Part shown: positions 23,667 to 31,139 of the stretch, in pieces | Layout of the letters: the number at the start of each line of letters is the position of its first letter | How positions within the stretch are numbered: position 1 is the stretch's first letter | Source: a bacterium | GTDB lineage: Bacteria > Zhuqueibacterota > Zhuqueibacteria > Residuimicrobiales > Krinioviventaceae | Length of the DNA: 64,000 bases | Direction: 5' to 3' | Assembly: GCA_029561455.1 (NCBI GenBank) | Contig: JAKQIY010000068.1 | Location: forward strand, 248,001-312,000 | Position numbers and translations under genes: made by a program | The notes under the pieces: model-generated | Databases searched by the model: none | The model's input: only the letters and a program-made list of their open reading frames with translations | Told to the model about the DNA's origin: nothing

Positions 23667-24282
23667 ACACTAAACCGGAATACTTTTGCATAATTGCTTC
23701 TTCAAGAATAGCTAATTGGCTTTCAATTTGCGCGTCGATGGTGCCATTCGGGGTTTTTATTACACACCCTCCACGTTTAACAGCGACACTTTCTTCAATT
23801 GCCAGTTTTGATAAATTATTATTTTCTTTTAAAATCTCTTTCCAATATTTTTCCAGATTTTCTTTATCTTCCGGATTGATCTGGATAACAAAATATTGTT
23901 CATTATTGGTCGACTTTAAGGTATTATTCACAATTTGTGCTATAAAAGATTGATCAACCTCGGCTTTTGTAAATATTATCTTGTTGGCGATAGCCATTGC
24001 CAGAGTTGCAATACTGTTATGGACTTGATTTAAATAATTCAATTCCTGTTCAGAATGGTTTTTAATCTCTGAATATATTTTATTGACCAGCTGCTGTAAT
24101 TGCCTGAGTTCCCCGAGCTCTTTTTGCCTTGCAGCCAGCAGTTGTATTTTCAGTAACTTTTCCTCTTTATCCATATTACCGATGCCGGACATATTAATGT
24201 CTTTATTATTTGCAGAAAGGGCATCGCGTTGCCCGGATGCCACTCGTACCACATCAGGCAATTTTACATGTAAATTATACAT
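23653..24282 (-). CDS. fliH: Flagellar export regulator FliH
   Basis: Negative regulator and stalk partner of FliI. I start it at the ATG at 24282 (MYNLHVKLPDVVRV), which has AGAGAGG three bases ahead and overlaps the fliG stop by eight bases; a longer open frame upstream lies wholly inside fliG. The protein (~209 residues) has a coiled-coil centre (about 40-100) and a V-ATPase E-subunit-like C-terminal domain with INPEDKENLEKYW and KRGGCVIKTPNGTIDAQIES. The latter pattern is typical of FliH. Confidence 0.88.
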   Translation of the reverse strand: MYNLHVKLPDVVRVASGQRDALSANNKDINMSGIGNMDKEEKLLKIQLLAARQKELGELRQLQQLVNKIYSEIKNHSEQELNYLNQVHNSIATLAMAIANKIIFTKAEVDQSFIAQIVNNTLKSTNNEQYFVIQINPEDKENLEKYWKEILKENNNLSKLAIEESVAVKRGGCVIKTPNGTIDAQIESQLAILEEAIMQKYSGLVYEQR

Positions 24283-25306
24283 AAACCTCTCTATCGGATG
24301 TCGGTAAGGCAATTTCACCGGCTTCAACCAGCTTTTTAATCTGCATGGCGATTTGTTGTTGAACAGTCTCAACCTCAGACAAGCGGACCTTACCAAGATA
24401 TTCAACTTCTTCATTCAGAATATTTCTGGCGCGTTCCGACATATTGCTGAATATTCGTTGTTTTAATTCATCACTGGAAACCTTTAATGCCAGCGCGAGA
24501 TCTTTCATTTCAATATCGCGCATCAGCCGCTGAATAGCATTATCATCGAGTGCAACAATGATATCGAATACAAACATACGCTTTTCAACTTCTTTGGCTA
24601 GTTCTTCATCATAATCTTCAAGGGCTTTCAAAGCGCTCTTTTCCGCTTTTTGACCGATAAAGTTAAGGATTGCCGCTACTTTATCGGCGCCACCTGCTTT
24701 TTCATGACGGATTCGTAAATCCATACTCGATGACAGGGCATGTTCAACTTCACCGACAAGACTGCTGTCAATCGATTTCATCAAAGTAAGCCGGATAATA
24801 ATTTCATTGCGTAAATCTTCATCAAATTTCGACAGAATGTTTCCGGCTTGCTCGGAATCAAGCTGCGATATAATAAAAGCAACGGTCTGTGGATGTTCTT
24901 CCGAGAGCATTTGGATAAACTGCTCGGGATGCAATTTACCAATAACGCCCATATCATGAACATCATTCGTGCGGCGCAATTTATCAATGATTTTCATAGC
25001 CCGCCCGGAATCCAGGGCTTCAACAAGCACATCGCGGGCATAATCAATACCGCCGGCTACCATATATTTTTGACCCATGATCAGGTTCTGGAACTCTTCG
25101 ATCACCTTTTCAAATTGTTCCGAAGGTATATGCTCCAGAATGGCCATTTCACGGGTAATAAGCTCAATTTCCTGGTCATTTAATTCGCGAAAAACTGCTG
25201 CGGCAGCTTTGGAACCAAGTCCGATAAGTAATGTGGCTACTTTACGTACACCACTGCCATGACTGCGCTGTCCCGATTCGTTTTCCATCATCCCTCCGTC
25301 AACCAT
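24275..25306 (-). CDS. fliG: Flagellar motor switch protein FliG
   Basis: Rotor protein that contacts FliF, FliM and MotA. The middle-domain EHPQ motif is intact in LSEEHPQTVAFIISQL, and the C-terminal torque helix region (EDIVALDDNAIQRLMRDIEM-like, then MSERARNILNEEVEYLG) is present. The length of 343 residues is normal. The start overlaps fliF by 19 bases. Confidence 0.97.
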   Translation of the reverse strand: MVDGGMMENESGQRSHGSGVRKVATLLIGLGSKAAAAVFRELNDQEIELITREMAILEHIPSEQFEKVIEEFQNLIMGQKYMVAGGIDYARDVLVEALDSGRAMKIIDKLRRTNDVHDMGVIGKLHPEQFIQMLSEEHPQTVAFIISQLDSEQAGNILSKFDEDLRNEIIIRLTLMKSIDSSLVGEVEHALSSSMDLRIRHEKAGGADKVAAILNFIGQKAEKSALKALEDYDEELAKEVEKRMFVFDIIVALDDNAIQRLMRDIEMKDLALALKVSSDELKQRIFSNMSERARNILNEEVEYLGKVRLSEVETVQQQIAMQIKKLVEAGEIALPTSDREVYV

Positions 25307-26856
25307 GCGCGAATTAATTGAGCTGTCATACTGGGATTATTCTGAATGTAGCTGGAAATATCTTCATTGCGCTGCATTGGGCCGGCAGTTGCTTTTTCAA
25401 TTTCCTCCAGAAAATCCACTTCTGGTTCTGCTACAACCGAAGCTTTACCGTTAGTAATATGTCCTCCGGTCGGCGCGACGCCATCAAGCTGCGGCATTGT
25501 TTCGTTAAACAGACTCTTTTTTGCTTTATTGAATTTTGAACGTATCATAAAGTAACCTATTAGTATTAACAAGCCGATCACAACTTTTTGGATAATTGAA
25601 CCCCACTGCTCCCAAAAATTATTTTCCTGCGGCAACGAATCCATTGTAACCCAGGATTCGCCTTCAAAGGCCAGATTCTGAACGACAAGTTCATCGCCCC
25701 GTTCAGTATTAAAACCGATGGCATTCTTTGCCAGGGTCTCAATCCGCAGCAATTCATCGGCAGTGCGGGGATTGTATTCGATAACAGTGTTACCGTCAGT
25801 ATCAGTGTTTTTAACCTGGCGATCATTGACCAAAATCGCTACCGTTAAACGTTTTATGCTGCCGGTATCCTCAAATATATGCTCCATTGTTTTGGTGATT
25901 TGATAATTGGTTATTGTATGTTCCGAGTTCATCTCACCATAGTTGGAAGAGTCCATACCGGTTTGGGTTGAGGTTTCTTCACTTAAAACAGCGGCGTTAT
26001 CAGGATCATATATTTCATTGGTTTTTTCAATTCGCCGGAAATCAAGATCGGCGGTTGTTTTTACAACCGAATTTCCGGGTCCTAAAAAACGATCCAAAAT
26101 AATTTGCGCTTTTTCTTCCAAGTATCTTTCCAACTGCAGTTGCAGTTCCAATTGTGTTTCATTCATTGCCGCCAGGGAATCGGTTTTACGGTTACGGGTC
26201 AATACCTTGCCATGGCTATCAACTATCGTTACCTGGTTAATATCCAAACCCTCAATGCTACCGGCAACAAGTTGCGCGATACCGTTAATTTGTTCTTCAC
26301 GTAGTTGCGCCCGACCTTTTAATGAAAGAAAAATTGAAGCCGACGCCTGTTCCTGGTCTTCCTTGAACACCCGCTCTTTGGGGAACACAATATGCACACG
26401 GGCTTTATCAATTTCTGCCATGCTTTGGATCGTGCGGCTGAGTTCGCCTTCCAGGGCGCGACGGTAATTTAATTGCTGAACAAATTCCGAAACACCAATA
26501 TCAGTTTTATCAAAAATCTCATAACCCAATCCGGAAGTTGCCGGTAAATTTTTCGATGCCAAATTTATACGGCTTTGATATAATTGCTTACTTGGAACCA
26601 TAATAGCGCGGCCGTTTTGGGTAATTTTATATGGAACATTTTGCGCTTCCAGTTCATCAATAATCGGCTGCGTATCTGCCGGATCAACATCAGAGACCAA
26701 TATCACATAATCGGGTTGTACTGCCCATTTTACAATTGCAACTGTCCCTAAAATGGCAATTAAAAAAACCATCAGCATCGTAATGCGCTGCGCCAGCATT
26801 AAATTTTGAAATGGCAGGAAAAAGCGTTCCCGCAGAATTTTTAACATTTCACCCAT
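25288..26856 (-). CDS. fliF: Flagellar MS-ring protein FliF
   Basis: Forms the MS ring in the inner membrane. N-terminal helix (about 20-42), the periplasmic YscJ-like segment with VPYKITQNGRAIMVPS and STSGLGYEIFD-like LPATSGLGYEIFDKTDIG, then the MS-ring C domain and a second helix (about 430-450). The C-terminal ~25 residues (MTAQLIRAWLTEG) form the FliG-binding tail. The length of 522 residues is normal. Confidence 0.96.
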   Translation of the reverse strand: MGEMLKILRERFFLPFQNLMLAQRITMLMVFLIAILGTVAIVKWAVQPDYVILVSDVDPADTQPIIDELEAQNVPYKITQNGRAIMVPSKQLYQSRINLASKNLPATSGLGYEIFDKTDIGVSEFVQQLNYRRALEGELSRTIQSMAEIDKARVHIVFPKERVFKEDQEQASASIFLSLKGRAQLREEQINGIAQLVAGSIEGLDINQVTIVDSHGKVLTRNRKTDSLAAMNETQLELQLQLERYLEEKAQIILDRFLGPGNSVVKTTADLDFRRIEKTNEIYDPDNAAVLSEETSTQTGMDSSNYGEMNSEHTITNYQITKTMEHIFEDTGSIKRLTVAILVNDRQVKNTDTDGNTVIEYNPRTADELLRIETLAKNAIGFNTERGDELVVQNLAFEGESWVTMDSLPQENNFWEQWGSIIQKVVIGLLILIGYFMIRSKFNKAKKSLFNETMPQLDGVAPTGGHITNGKASVVAEPEVDFLEEIEKATAGPMQRNEDISSYIQNNPSMTAQLIRAWLTEG

Positions 26857-26912: not shown

Positions 26913-27212
26913 TTACATCTGCATTCTGGAAATTTCCCGGTACGCATCAATCAACCGGTTGCGTACCTGCAAGACCAGTTCAAGTCCAACACTGGCCTTT
27001 TCCGCGGCAATCATCACATCATGAATATCTTCAACTTCACCCTTGGCGAACTGATCTGCAACTTTTCCGGCATCTAATTGCATATTATTAACATCGCCAA
27101 GTAATTCTTTAACCCGGTCGCCAAAACTTGTATCTTTTTTATCAGTACTGCCGGGTCTTATATTCACTTCCGGTAAATAATTTTGTCCGGTTATTGAGGG
27201 TATTGAACTCAT
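26913..27212 (-). CDS. fliE: Flagellar rod/MS-ring junction protein FliE
   Basis: A 99-residue rod protein with the FliE core: SFGDRVKELLGDVNNMQLDA and the C-terminal EDIHDVMIAAEKASVGLELV with RNRLIDAYREISRMQM. It connects the MS ring and the rod. It follows the unknown 117-aa gene by 10 bases and is followed by fliF after 56 bases. Confidence 0.95.
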   Translation of the reverse strand: MSSIPSITGQNYLPEVNIRPGSTDKKDTSFGDRVKELLGDVNNMQLDAGKVADQFAKGEVEDIHDVMIAAEKASVGLELVLQVRNRLIDAYREISRMQM

Positions 27213-27222
27213 ATTGATCTCT

Positions 27223-27576
27223 TTATGTTGTCAGGTCCAGTTTTTTGCCAATCACATTGCTGCTGCTAACCAGGGTCGACATTTTATAAGCATCAACTCC
27301 CCAGCGGTTTCCATTGCCAGAAAACAATTCCTGCAGCATGGCTTTTTCTTCAGGTATTAATACATCTTCCAGCTTTTGTGGTAAATTATTTAAATTGAAT
27401 GCTACTGCGCCGACCTGGTTCGAACCGGTGGTAATACTTTTACGACCAATAGTTTGATTTGAATCGATAACAGTTTTTTGCTGCTGCGAACCAACGTCGT
27501 CAGGTTTCTGATTCGGACGCTGCTGCGGCAAATTATTGATCATATTACGCGAATAAACACTCGACTCAATTTTCAT
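27223..27576 (-). CDS. Unknown flagellar-cluster protein between flgC and fliE
   Basis: A 117-residue hydrophilic protein with no signal peptide or membrane segment. The first ~60 residues are low complexity (Gln, Asn, Ser). The C-terminal half has a compact-looking segment: LPQKLEDVLIPEEKAMLQEL, then GNRWGVDAYK. I do not recognise the family. Both neighbours are rod genes, with 23 bases to flgC and 10 to fliE, so it is in the same transcript. It could be an export-related or rod-associated factor, but this is inference from position. Confidence 0.75.
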   Translation of the reverse strand: MKIESSVYSRNMINNLPQQRPNQKPDDVGSQQQKTVIDSNQTIGRKSITTGSNQVGAVAFNLNNLPQKLEDVLIPEEKAMLQELFSGNGNRWGVDAYKMSTLVSSSNVIGKKLDLTT

Positions 27577-27599: not shown

Positions 27600-28097
27600 C
27601 TAGATTTCAAGAGCTTTTTTAAACATATCTTTTGCCGAATTTAAAACTGTTGCATTTGCTTCATACGCCCGAGCGGCGGTCATTAATTTTACCATTTCAT
27701 CGATCATATTTACATCGGCAACCTCGACGTAACCTTCTGCATTGGCGTGAGGATGATCGGGGGCATAGATCAATTTAGTATCGCTATTCTTTAATACCTG
27801 TTCATCTGCCGAAACTCCAGCCTGGCGGGAATTATCATTAAAATGACCGGCGATACCTTTCATGTGCTGGGAAAAATTTCGCAATAATGATGTGCGTGTA
27901 TTACTGTCACTATTTTGTAACGATTTATCATCAACTGCATAAAACTCAATTTCTTTTGGTTTATAAGGCTCACCGGTTTTGCGGTCAAAACTTTCCGCAT
28001 TGGCAATATTCTCGGCGCGAACCTCAAGATTCTTACGCTGGGCGGAAAGCCCGCTGCCGCTGATGCCAAAAACTCCAAATATTCTTCCGATAGCCAT
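27600..28097 (-). CDS. flgC: Flagellar basal-body rod protein FlgC
   Basis: Proximal rod protein. N-terminal rod motif GLSAQRKNLEVRAENIANAES, then the DHPHANAEGYV and NVDMIDEMVKLMTAARAYEAN-type blocks near the C-terminus (here VNMIDEMVKLMTAARAYEAN). The length of 165 residues is slightly over the usual ~135-150. It lies 16 bases after flgB. Confidence 0.96.
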   Translation of the reverse strand: MAIGRIFGVFGISGSGLSAQRKNLEVRAENIANAESFDRKTGEPYKPKEIEFYAVDDKSLQNSDSNTRTSLLRNFSQHMKGIAGHFNDNSRQAGVSADEQVLKNSDTKLIYAPDHPHANAEGYVEVADVNMIDEMVKLMTAARAYEANATVLNSAKDMFKKALEI

Positions 28098-28113: not shown

Positions 28114-28521
28114 TTACTGACTGGTTATACTTGTGTGTAATGATTTGAATTTGGCAGCGGTAATTTTTGAAGCGGCAGAATAATATAACTGGTTCTCAGC
28201 AGCTTTAACCATTTCCTTGTCAATATCTACATTATTTATACCGCTCAGGGGCTCGGACAAACTATCTTTATCTTCTTCAATCAACTGTTCATTACCATTA
28301 TCTGTAAGCGCAATATGACGGGAATCGCTGCGTAAGACTGAAACCGAATTACCCGAACCCGTAGAATTCAACAACTCTGCAAAATTCACATCTTTGGTCT
28401 TGTATCCCGGTGTATTGACATTAGCAATATTATCGGCAATTGCCCTTTGCCTGGCGGATGAACCGTCAAGTAAACGAGCAAAAATCGGGATATTCATTTT
28501 TTCAAAAACTGCTTTAAACAT
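28114..28521 (-). CDS. flgB: Flagellar basal-body rod protein FlgB
   Basis: Proximal rod protein and first gene of the large flagellar operon. The motif RQRAIADNIANVNTPGYKTK (about residues 24-43) and the C-terminal VDIDKEMVKAAENQLYYSA are standard. The length of 135 residues is normal. AAGGA precedes the ATG, and a consensus sigma54 promoter lies ~45 bases upstream. Confidence 0.96.
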   Translation of the reverse strand: MFKAVFEKMNIPIFARLLDGSSARQRAIADNIANVNTPGYKTKDVNFAELLNSTGSGNSVSVLRSDSRHIALTDNGNEQLIEEDKDSLSEPLSGINNVDIDKEMVKAAENQLYYSAASKITAAKFKSLHTSITSQ

Positions 28522-28560: not shown

Positions 28561-28579
28561 AAGCAAGGCCCGTGCCAAA
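28561..28579 (-). promoter_or_regulatory. Sigma54 promoter for the flgB operon
   Basis: On the minus strand TTTGGCACGGGCCTTGCTT. This matches the sigma54 consensus TTGGCACG-N4-TTGCT at every conserved position, with ten bases between the -24 GG and -12 GC. The predicted start is near 28551, 30 bases before the flgB ATG. Its activator is probably the NtrC-type protein encoded immediately upstream. Confidence 0.9.
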
Positions 28580-28593: not shown

Positions 28594-28687
28594 ACTTGGG
28601 GTTAACTAGATTGATTTTGTTATAATTAAAAGACTTTACAGGGAAGGATATGGCACGGCCACAAGAGGTTGCAGGTAAAAGTTACAG

Positions 28688-30058
28688 TTATTGGGAATTT
28701 TCTTCCCAAAAATCACCGCCATAGCTCTTTAATTTATTACGCAGGGTTTTAACCGTAATACCCAGCGCCTGGGCAGCTTTGGTTTTGTTGTTGCTGACCT
28801 TTTTTAGCGTTTTCATAATGAGACGCTTCTCTGCTTCATATATCGTCAAATCATCGTCAGAGTTAAATAAATATTCAAATAAATCTCCATAATCATCAAT
28901 AAATTCTAAATCCGCAGCCTTGATTTCTTTATCAAGGGCGATTACGGCTACTTTTTCTATGGTATTTTGTAATTCACGAATATTACCCGGCCAGTCATAA
29001 TCGCATAATTTTTTCATAGCATCTTCTGAAATTGTCTTGATTAGACCATGCTCGGCGTTGACTTTTTTAATAAAATATTCAGCAAGTAACGGGATGTCAC
29101 CTTTGCGTTGACGTAAAGCCGGTACATTAATTTTGATGACGTTCAACCGGAAGTATAAATCCTTACGGAAACGGCCTTCCTTCACTTCCTCACGCAAGTC
29201 CCGGTTGGTTGTAGCAATCACACGGGTATTGACTTTGATGCTTTTGGTATCGCCCAATCGTTCAAATTGTTTGGTTTGTAATACCCGTAATAACTTGGCC
29301 TGCATTGAAAGCGGTAGTTCGCCAATTTCATCCAGTAAAATTGTACCGCCATCAGCTTGCTCAAATCTCCCCTTGCGGCGCATGTGCGCACCGGTAAAAG
29401 CGCCTTTTTCATAACCAAACAATTCGCTCTCGATCAGGGTTTCCGGTAATGCGGCGCAGTTTACCTTAATATATGGATTTTCGCGGCAGTTACTACATAA
29501 ATGAATGGCATCGGCCACTACTTCTTTACCAACGCCGGTTTCTCCTTCTATTAATATACTGGCATTGGTAGGTGCAATACGATTTACCAGGTTGATTATA
29601 TCTTCAATTTGAGTAGATTTGCCGATCAAAATAGAACTGATCTCCAGCCGATCGGAAGGATCAGTTTGTGGAATTACAGTTGTTACATTACGGTGTTTTA
29701 ATACCCGGCGGATGAGTTGCTGAATGTCTTTTTTAGAATAGGGTTTGGTTAAATAATCAAAGGCGCCTTTGCGCATTGCTTCAACTGCATTTTCAATAGA
29801 ACCATAAGCAGTACCTATTACTACATCAATTTCCGGTTTAACTTTTTTAATATATTCGAGGACCTTGATACCACTTAATTCAGGAATTCGTAAATCTGTA
29901 AATACAATATCATAATCATTATTATCAATTGCATTTATTGCCGCTTTTCCATCACCTACACTCGTTGTTACACAATCAATATCTTTAATTACAACTTCAA
30001 GAAATTGGCGCACTGTCGGATCGTCTTCAACCACAAGTACACTGGGATTTTCTGACAT
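28688..30058 (-). CDS. NtrC-type sigma54 activator of flagellar genes (FlgR/FleR-like)
   Basis: A response regulator with a receiver (residues 1-120; phospho-acceptor Asp55 in FTDLRIP, Lys105), an AAA+ sigma54-interaction domain (about 145-380; Walker A GETGVGKE at 172-179, GAFTGA at 219-224, both intact) and a C-terminal Fis-type helix-turn-helix (about 410-450). It activates sigma54 promoters after phosphorylation. Located between the kinase-like gene and the flgB sigma54 promoter, it is the obvious candidate for driving flagellar class II genes. The name FlgR/FleR is by function, not by proven orthology. Confidence 0.93.
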   Translation of the reverse strand: MSENPSVLVVEDDPTVRQFLEVVIKDIDCVTTSVGDGKAAINAIDNNDYDIVFTDLRIPELSGIKVLEYIKKVKPEIDVVIGTAYGSIENAVEAMRKGAFDYLTKPYSKKDIQQLIRRVLKHRNVTTVIPQTDPSDRLEISSILIGKSTQIEDIINLVNRIAPTNASILIEGETGVGKEVVADAIHLCSNCRENPYIKVNCAALPETLIESELFGYEKGAFTGAHMRRKGRFEQADGGTILLDEIGELPLSMQAKLLRVLQTKQFERLGDTKSIKVNTRVIATTNRDLREEVKEGRFRKDLYFRLNVIKINVPALRQRKGDIPLLAEYFIKKVNAEHGLIKTISEDAMKKLCDYDWPGNIRELQNTIEKVAVIALDKEIKAADLEFIDDYGDLFEYLFNSDDDLTIYEAEKRLIMKTLKKVSNNKTKAAQALGITVKTLRNKLKSYGGDFWEENSQ

Positions 30059-30790
30059 TTATTCTCTCCCTGGTAGTTTTGGTAATATAATATTCACTTT
30101 TGTCCCGGCATTAACCTGGCTTTTAATTTCAATTTGCCCCCGGTGCAGCATTATGTAATTTCTCGCCATTACCAGTCCCAAACCACGTCCATTATGTTTA
30201 GTGGTATAAAAGGGGGTAAACAACTTTTCCATTATTTTTTTATCAATGCCTACACCAGTATCTTCAATAATCAATGCTATTGCCGGTTTGTTATCCAGTT
30301 TGGTATATTCATAATCAATAAAAATTTCGCCATCATGTTGTGTAGCATCAACAGCATTTTGTAATATGTTAACCAGGGCATTTTGTAATAAAATTAAATC
30401 TGCCCAGACAAAAATTTCCTCATCACTAGTTTCAAAATGATAAACAGTATTTTTGTTCAAAAAAAATTGTTTGACGACCTGGTCGACAAATGAATGAAAA
30501 TGGATTTTGATAAATGAAGGATTAAGAGGCCGCGTTAACAGGTACAAATCTTCTATAAAACTGTCGATTCTCTGAATACAACTATCAATTGTTTGTAATT
30601 TGGAAGAATCAATATGATCTTTGATCTCTTCCTTCAACATAGAAATAGTTGCGGCTATGCCGGCCAGGGGATTTCGTATCTCATCGGCGATGGAATCGGC
30701 CATTTGTGATAAGAAATTAAAAAAAGCCGGATTCAATTGATTGACTTTTTCGGAATGTATCGATTCTTCAATAAATTCAATTTTCGACAT
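30059..30790 (-). CDS. Sensor-kinase-like protein with Asp at the H-box
   Basis: A small soluble kinase (243 residues, no membrane helix). The dimerisation H-box reads SIADEIRNPLAGI with Asp36 (codon GAT) where NtrB/FlgS-type kinases have the phospho-accepting His in HEIRNPL. The ATP-binding domain looks whole: N-box LVNILQNAVDAT, G1 DTGVGI, F-box LFTPFYTT and G2 GRGLGL. It could not autophosphorylate in the usual way, so it may act as an allosteric regulator or phosphatase, or may pair with another kinase. It ends where the sigma54 activator gene begins. Confidence 0.9.
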   Translation of the reverse strand: MSKIEFIEESIHSEKVNQLNPAFFNFLSQMADSIADEIRNPLAGIAATISMLKEEIKDHIDSSKLQTIDSCIQRIDSFIEDLYLLTRPLNPSFIKIHFHSFVDQVVKQFFLNKNTVYHFETSDEEIFVWADLILLQNALVNILQNAVDATQHDGEIFIDYEYTKLDNKPAIALIIEDTGVGIDKKIMEKLFTPFYTTKHNGRGLGLVMARNYIMLHRGQIEIKSQVNAGTKVNIILPKLPGRE

Positions 30791-30821: not shown

Positions 30822-31139
30822 CTAGCTTTTAACAAAAGTTTCACCACTTTCAGGATCATATTCAAAATGTACATGGATCAACTCACCGCAAACACAGGTA
30901 ATTTTTAATCCTGTAACAATGCCATCCTTCTCATCCAATTCTATGTGAGGTTGATGTGAAAAAGTGGAGTTCATAGTCTCAGTTCCGGTTTTATCAGGCC
31001 GGGTATTCTTTGGGTCAACAGCTATCTGATTTTGCTTGATAACTTTTGACAATCCTTTGGAAGAAATATGGGGCAGATCGTCATGTTTTAACCAGTCGGA
31101 AAAATTTTCAAAACCGGTATTTCGCTCTTTTTTCATCAC
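30822..31139 (-). CDS. Unknown 105-residue protein, first gene of the flagellar regulator operon
   Basis: A hydrophilic protein with a basic N-terminal half and a C-terminal segment HIELDEKDGIVTGLKITCVC followed by GELIHVHFEYDP. The Cys-Val-Cys plus two close His could bind metal; this is a guess from spacing. No membrane or signal segment is seen. I do not recognise the family. It is the promoter-proximal gene ahead of the kinase-like and activator genes, which is a likely place for a cofactor of that pair. Confidence 0.75.
   Translation of the reverse strand: MMKKERNTGFENFSDWLKHDDLPHISSKGLSKVIKQNQIAVDPKNTRPDKTGTETMNSTFSHQPHIELDEKDGIVTGLKITCVCGELIHVHFEYDPESGETFVKS

Follow-up and report, generated by a model that had tools for sequence, protein, structure and literature searches.

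The flagellar locus described here raises the question of how an NtrC-type activator is controlled when the protein encoded beside it is built like a histidine kinase and lacks the phospho-accepting histidine. In the window, meaning the whole 64-kb stretch of DNA that was analyzed, the minus-strand ORF at 30059..30790 (ATG start, 243 aa) encodes a HisKA/HATPase protein with no sensor domain, as judged from its Pfam domains and an alignment with 23 homologues. Its H-box, MADSIADEIRNPLAGI, reads M-A-D-S-I-A-D36-E-I-R-N-P-L-A-G, and codon 36, at the phospho-acceptor position, is GAT (30683..30685, minus strand), confirming the claim of the first-pass annotation that Asp stands in place of the H-box His. 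The ATP-binding domain had also been described as intact, and so it is: the Pfam models for HisKA (45.1 bits, residues 27-87) and HATPase_c (78.4 bits, residues 131-238; 30077..30400, minus strand) both match above their curated cut-offs, and the N, G1, F, and G2 boxes are all present. Codon 40 (AAT; 30671..30673, minus strand) places Asn at His+4, the position at which HisKA phosphatases carry Asn or Thr, its role being assigned from residue N375 of CrdS (PMC3510030). The label of "sensor" kinase, in contrast, had to be corrected, since only ~25 residues precede the DHp domain and they contain no PAS or other input domain. In the alignment of 24 homologues, relatives from outside the order have roughly 60-280 residues ahead of the H-box, and those of families f6, f9, f14, f16, f21, f22, and f23 have ~200 or more ahead of the DHp domain (the G077 sequence is cut by a contig end). 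The Asp36 protein and its orthologues in genomes G002 and G012 lack the acceptor His of a HisKA sensor kinase, and autophosphorylation or phosphotransfer on a histidine at this site is predicted to be absent from the Asp36 protein.

The genomic setting is that of a flagellar two-component system. Reading along the minus strand, the gene order is a 105-aa gene (30822..31139), the Asp36 gene, an NtrC-type sigma54 activator (28688..30058), flgB (28114..28521), flgC (27600..28097), a 117-aa gene (27223-27576), fliE (26913..27212), fliF for the MS ring (25288..26856), and fliG for the rotor/switch (24275..25306); the five named flagellar genes match TIGR01396, TIGR01395, TIGR00205, TIGR00206, and TIGR00207, respectively, above cut-off. 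The Asp36 gene therefore adjoins both an NtrC-type activator and a flagellar operon, as do the genes for FlgS, FleS, and FlrB. The activator contains Response_reg, Sigma54_activat, and HTH_8 domains (Pfam), with a GAFTGA motif and a Fis-type HTH; its receiver has the normal Asp55 previously attributed to it, and the other receiver residues are intact as well. A pattern scan located a perfect -24/-12 sigma54 promoter, TGGCACGGGCCTTGCT (28562..28577, minus strand), between the activator and flgB, ~40 bp upstream of the latter, which is the first structural gene behind it. This is the only zero-mismatch sigma54 match within the window; similar sites lie upstream of flgB in relatives, and sigma54 itself is encoded in the window's genome. 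A palindrome, TGGCCGTGCCA (28651-28661, minus strand), lies between the activator stop codon and this promoter and is a candidate activator-binding site. The 117-aa gene between flgC and fliE has no NCBIfam match, and its position is kept in G002, G007, G012, G033, and G076. As listed, the ORFs of fliG and of the fliH-like gene behind it share ~140 bases (24275-24414, minus strand), which means that fliH probably starts further downstream.

Is the substitution real and maintained, or is it an error or a step toward decay? Two close orthologues, the only ones found in the order of the window's genome, encode proteins 58% (G002, another genus) and 52% (G012, another family) identical to the Asp36 protein, and both have Asp, specified by GAT and GAC, respectively. 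Both also share the operon: 105-aa protein, kinase, activator, flgB, flgC, 117-aa gene, fliE, fliF, and fliG. In G007, from the genus of G002, the flanks are the same and the kinase falls in an assembly gap, the flgB contig stopping inside the activator and the 105-aa homologue being cut by the end of another contig; a relative from the same genus as the window's genome (G001) and most of the order lack flgB. A sequencing error at codon 36, which would have made the substitution a one-off, was rejected because Asp occurs in three assemblies and is written with two codons. The earlier view that this is not simple decay also stands: among the three Asp proteins, 21 of 23 residues in the ATP-binding and H-box motifs are invariant, versus 94 of 224 aligned residues overall (hypergeometric p = 3e-7), on branches as long as 0.33-0.42 changes per site. 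The Asp lineage has private residues in both partners, namely His199 in the ATP lid, Tyr83, and Cys71 of the kinase, and Gly82 (directly before the conserved Thr) and Asp111 of the activator. By comparative evidence, then, the Asp36 protein is a conserved His-less protein rather than a pseudogene, an error, or an isolated case. Protein scans of GTDB contigs and viral contigs returned only remote His-bearing kinases, or nothing.

The substitution is rare among kinases of the same genome (5.85 Mb, 98.8% complete). A census of 45 HisKA domain rows from fetched loci gave 43 with His at the acceptor position, one with Asn, and one, the Asp36 gene, with Asp; in a sample of 32 other kinases from the phylum, the residue is His in 31 and Arg in one. 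The Arg-bearing kinase lies elsewhere in the phylum (L026 1381-3639, minus strand; GSIARELRNPLGAI). The Asn-bearing protein, the second His-less HisKA protein of the window's assembly (L138 1396-2349, minus strand, contig C22; SNIRNEINNPLAV), is encoded in a chemotaxis operon, flanked by apparent cheB and cheD genes and after a cheR-like gene, these names having been assigned by eye. A His-bearing duplicate or a second FlgS-like kinase hidden in the genome was sought and not found, given that the Asp36 gene is itself the best DHp-CA match in its own genome for the flagellar kinases of f10, f22, and f23.

Across the phylum, loss of kinase competence turned out to be recurrent. A sample of 82 genomes yielded 24 kinase homologues adjoining this type of NtrC-type activator, of which three have Asp at the acceptor site (the window's genome, G002, and G012), two have Asn (G031 and G074), and the remainder have His. 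The comparison of orthologues that had been proposed as a check shows Asp to be conserved in the closest ones, so that the refuting case of orthologues with His does not arise among them; distant ones mostly have His, with two having Asn and others lacking the ATP-binding domain. Within f10, G031 has Asn while its relatives G039, G042, G045, and G048 have His. In G074 (f21), the Asn-bearing kinase and the activator are kept (L173 1660-4270, plus strand), and no flgB was found in this genome (94% complete); the pair is possibly a relic or has possibly been re-used. Four kinases of f9 have eroded ATP-binding domains (L054 10876-12225, minus strand; L059 2327-3790, L168 1701-2957, and L170 1374-2633, plus strand). 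In G055 and G035, the N, G1, and G2 boxes are lost and Lys occupies His+1, and in G047 and G059, the N-box Asn, the last G1 Gly, and the G2 box are lost; in genus g20, sister to these lineages, the ATP-binding boxes are intact. These f9 kinases, in which the His is kept and the ATP-binding domain has eroded, represent the opposite kind of kinase loss. The His+1 Glu is replaced by Ser in G060 and by Gln in G063.

On a tree of kinase and activator together, calculated without the His column, the acceptor position must have changed three times, and kinase competence, scored at either the acceptor or the ATP site, must have been lost five times. There were thus at least five losses (His to Asp once, His to Asn twice, and the ATP-binding domain twice), and two further lineages are added if the His+1 changes are counted. 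Throughout, the Asn at His+4 is unchanged in 24/24 homologues, and the acidic pair, phospho-acceptor Asp, Thr, and Lys of the receiver are kept in 24/24 activators (three of them cut by contig ends beyond the receiver). Relatives without the ATP-binding domain or without His retain the DHp domain and the operon position.

The 105-aa protein had been suggested as a possible third member of the system, and synteny across the phylum supports this. A profile built from six relatives detected the family in 20 genomes from 10 families, with a C-terminal CxCG motif as its invariant core. The homologue is directly upstream of the kinase homologue in f1, f4, f6, f9, and G063, separated from it by one receiver-domain gene in f22 and f23, and ~1.6 kb upstream in G060 and G064. 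In G046, it is directly upstream of flgB, and in G066, no kinase was seen near it in the short stretch that was read; the profile search detected no copy in f10. Because relatives in so many genomes and families mostly lie just upstream of the kinase homologue, the triad of 105-aa protein, kinase, and activator is, on gene order, a real and phylum-wide unit. No Pfam or NCBIfam model and no credible PDB entry matches the family. Two f9 genomes have a sigma54-like site just upstream of the 105-aa homologue, and in f22 and f23, two extra receiver-domain proteins flank it in the same operon (L164 4653-5363 and 5608-6441; L163 230-1120 and 1422-2117).

What, then, might a conserved kinase homologue without its acceptor do? 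The preferred explanation, given about an even chance of being correct, is that the Asp36 protein acts as a sensorless, kinase-dead, nucleotide-responsive phosphatase, or gatekeeper, of a flagellar sigma54 activator whose phosphate comes from another donor. The gene would descend from a His-bearing FlgS/FleS-like kinase that lost histidine autophosphorylation while keeping the DHp dimer that docks the activator receiver, the Asn that places the water for hydrolysis, and the ATP-binding domain. The activator would be phosphorylated from elsewhere, by acetyl phosphate or a non-cognate kinase, and held off by the Asp36 protein as its dedicated phosphatase; relief of this action, in which the 105-aa protein and the status of the FliF/FliG ring may take part, would switch on the sigma54 promoter of flgB, the signal being a guess. 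The first-pass annotation had offered a phosphatase, an allosteric partner, or a decoy, combined with a different donor, and these are the right options to weigh, with the invariant His+4 Asn favoring the phosphatase.

Several lines of evidence bear on this explanation. The changes found across the phylum, at His, at His+1, and in the ATP-binding domain, all strike the kinase function, and the residue equivalent to the phosphatase Asn of CrdS never changes, which favors a phosphatase or gatekeeper. Asp36, Glu37, and Asn40 align with H371, E372, and N375 of CrdS from Myxococcus, in which the H371A variant still lowers the half-life of CrdA~P from 53.5 to 2.6 min, substitution of E372 abolishes kinase but not phosphatase activity, and N375 is required for phosphatase activity only (PMC3510030). 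In NtrB or EnvZ, the DHp domain is sufficient for phosphatase activity, which the ATP-binding domain raises (PMC3510030). Acetyl phosphate is a possible donor, since acetate kinase and phosphotransacetylase are present in the window's genome. In Campylobacter FlgR, the C-terminal domain is said to block phosphorylation by acetyl phosphate (PMC3930126), suggesting that activators of this type can be open to this donor. With respect to the signal, the flagellar two-component systems of Campylobacter, Vibrio, and Pseudomonas need the FliF ring, FliG, and the export apparatus (PMC7064773).

Other observations weigh against a phosphatase. The His+4 Asn may also be invariant for structural reasons, because it sits in the RNP motif, a structural element that is conserved in general. 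In HisKA enzymes, dephosphorylation is assisted by the phospho-acceptor His (PMC7005713), PleC H610A loses phosphatase activity (PMC3510030), and the charge of Asp36 near the phospho-Asp could be repulsive. Furthermore, Glu37 is kept in all three Asp orthologues, and a pure phosphatase leaves this unexplained because CrdS needs the corresponding Glu for its kinase activity and not for its phosphatase activity.

Retention of Glu37 is easier to explain under the main rival, in which the Asp36 protein is a pseudokinase of the DivL type that binds the activator receiver, perhaps in one phosphorylation state, leaves phosphorylation unchanged, and passes on the state of assembly or nucleotide through its conformation, in the manner of FliX with FlbD. 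There are precedents for both halves of this scheme, in that DivL, with Tyr in place of His, senses DivK~P without kinase or phosphatase activity (PMC4211667), and FlbD, which lacks a cognate kinase, is under the control of FliX (PMC7064773); the relatives that lost the ATP-binding domain or His and still keep the DHp domain and operon position fit it too. DivL, however, binds ATP weakly, whereas the Asp36 protein keeps every ATP-binding motif, and the phosphatase Asn of all 24 homologues and the intact phosphorylation site of all receivers also count against this alternative, which is held to be clearly less likely than the phosphatase. An intact ATP-binding domain with the acceptor gone would also suit a heterodimer with, or an adaptor for, another histidine kinase, whose His would be phosphorylated in trans and the phosphoryl group passed to the activator. 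In Corynebacterium, the ChrS pseudokinase needs a paralogous kinase to cross-phosphorylate its regulator, and native ChrS forms heterodimers with HrrS (PMC9491836); the >40 HisKA kinases of the window's genome supply potential partners. The genome nonetheless encodes no close paralogue of the Asp36 protein, and the scheme is impossible for lineages with a dead ATP-binding domain, so that it is distinctly unlikely.

It is improbable that the gene is simply relaxed, its kinase activity no longer mattering and the protein being on its way out. Such decay would agree with the eroded ATP-binding domains of some related lineages and with the many species of the order that lack flgB, but over the long branches noted above the Asp lineages have preserved an open frame, the Asp, the catalytic motifs, and the operon. 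Least credible, with a very slight chance, is a direct catalytic or mimetic role for the substituted residue, whereby Asp36 is phosphorylated by ATP to an acyl phosphate that is passed to the activator Asp, or serves as a permanent mimic of phospho-His. The fixation of Asp rather than a neutral residue and the retention of Glu37 and all ATP-binding motifs are compatible with it, and DesK H188E has been taken to represent the phosphotransfer-state conformation (PMC7005713); against this, no precedent was found, and the two independent relatives with Asn could not form an acyl phosphate.

A broader proposal built on the phosphatase explanation, held tentatively and with less than even expectation, is that the flagellar checkpoint of this phylum has been repeatedly rewired from kinase-on to phosphatase-off, such that natural kinase-dead, ATP-binding phosphatases gate a sigma54 activator charged by a general donor (e.g., acetyl phosphate), with the small CxCG protein as signal input. 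A few pseudo-histidine kinases are on record, among them DivL. His-less HisKA proteins as such are thus already known; a literature search of open-license papers returned none that serves a flagellar NtrC-type activator as its own partner, and no system of this kind in which the kinase was lost repeatedly. In this phylum, independent losses of kinase competence have struck a flagellar two-component system several times, with the regulator's receiver and the phosphatase residue being kept. The resulting natural series can be used to ask which half of a bifunctional sensor kinase matters in flagellar assembly checkpoints, and how a kinase turns into a pure phosphatase or an allosteric sensor.

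Compared with known systems, the locus resembles FlgS/FleS/FlrB with FlgR/FleR/FlrC of Campylobacter, Pseudomonas, and Vibrio in having a cytoplasmic HisKA-HATPase protein beside an NtrC-type activator and flagellar basal genes, with an exact sigma54 promoter at flgB. FlgS, FleS, and FlrB are active kinases that phosphorylate their activators, whereas the Asp36 protein, having no acceptor His, is not expected to do so; it also lacks a PAS or long coiled-coil input, and is preceded by the CxCG protein. With Caulobacter DivL it shares a HisKA domain with a replaced acceptor His, a retained DHp domain, and an intact partner receiver, but DivL has Tyr, PAS domains, and weak ATP binding, while the Asp36 protein has Asp, no PAS, and full ATP-binding motifs, and is paired with its own adjacent activator. 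As in Myxococcus CrdS and the kinase-minus, phosphatase-plus HisKA mutants, the H-box has the phosphatase Asn at +4, and CrdS H371A keeps most of its phosphatase activity; in CrdS, the wild-type residue is His and the change was engineered, whereas in the Asp36 protein it is natural and fixed. Finally, FliX-FlbD of Caulobacter likewise comprises an NtrC-type flagellar activator that has no active cognate kinase and is coupled to early basal-body assembly, with the difference that FliX is not a kinase homologue, while the helper in the present system is a kinase that has lost its histidine.
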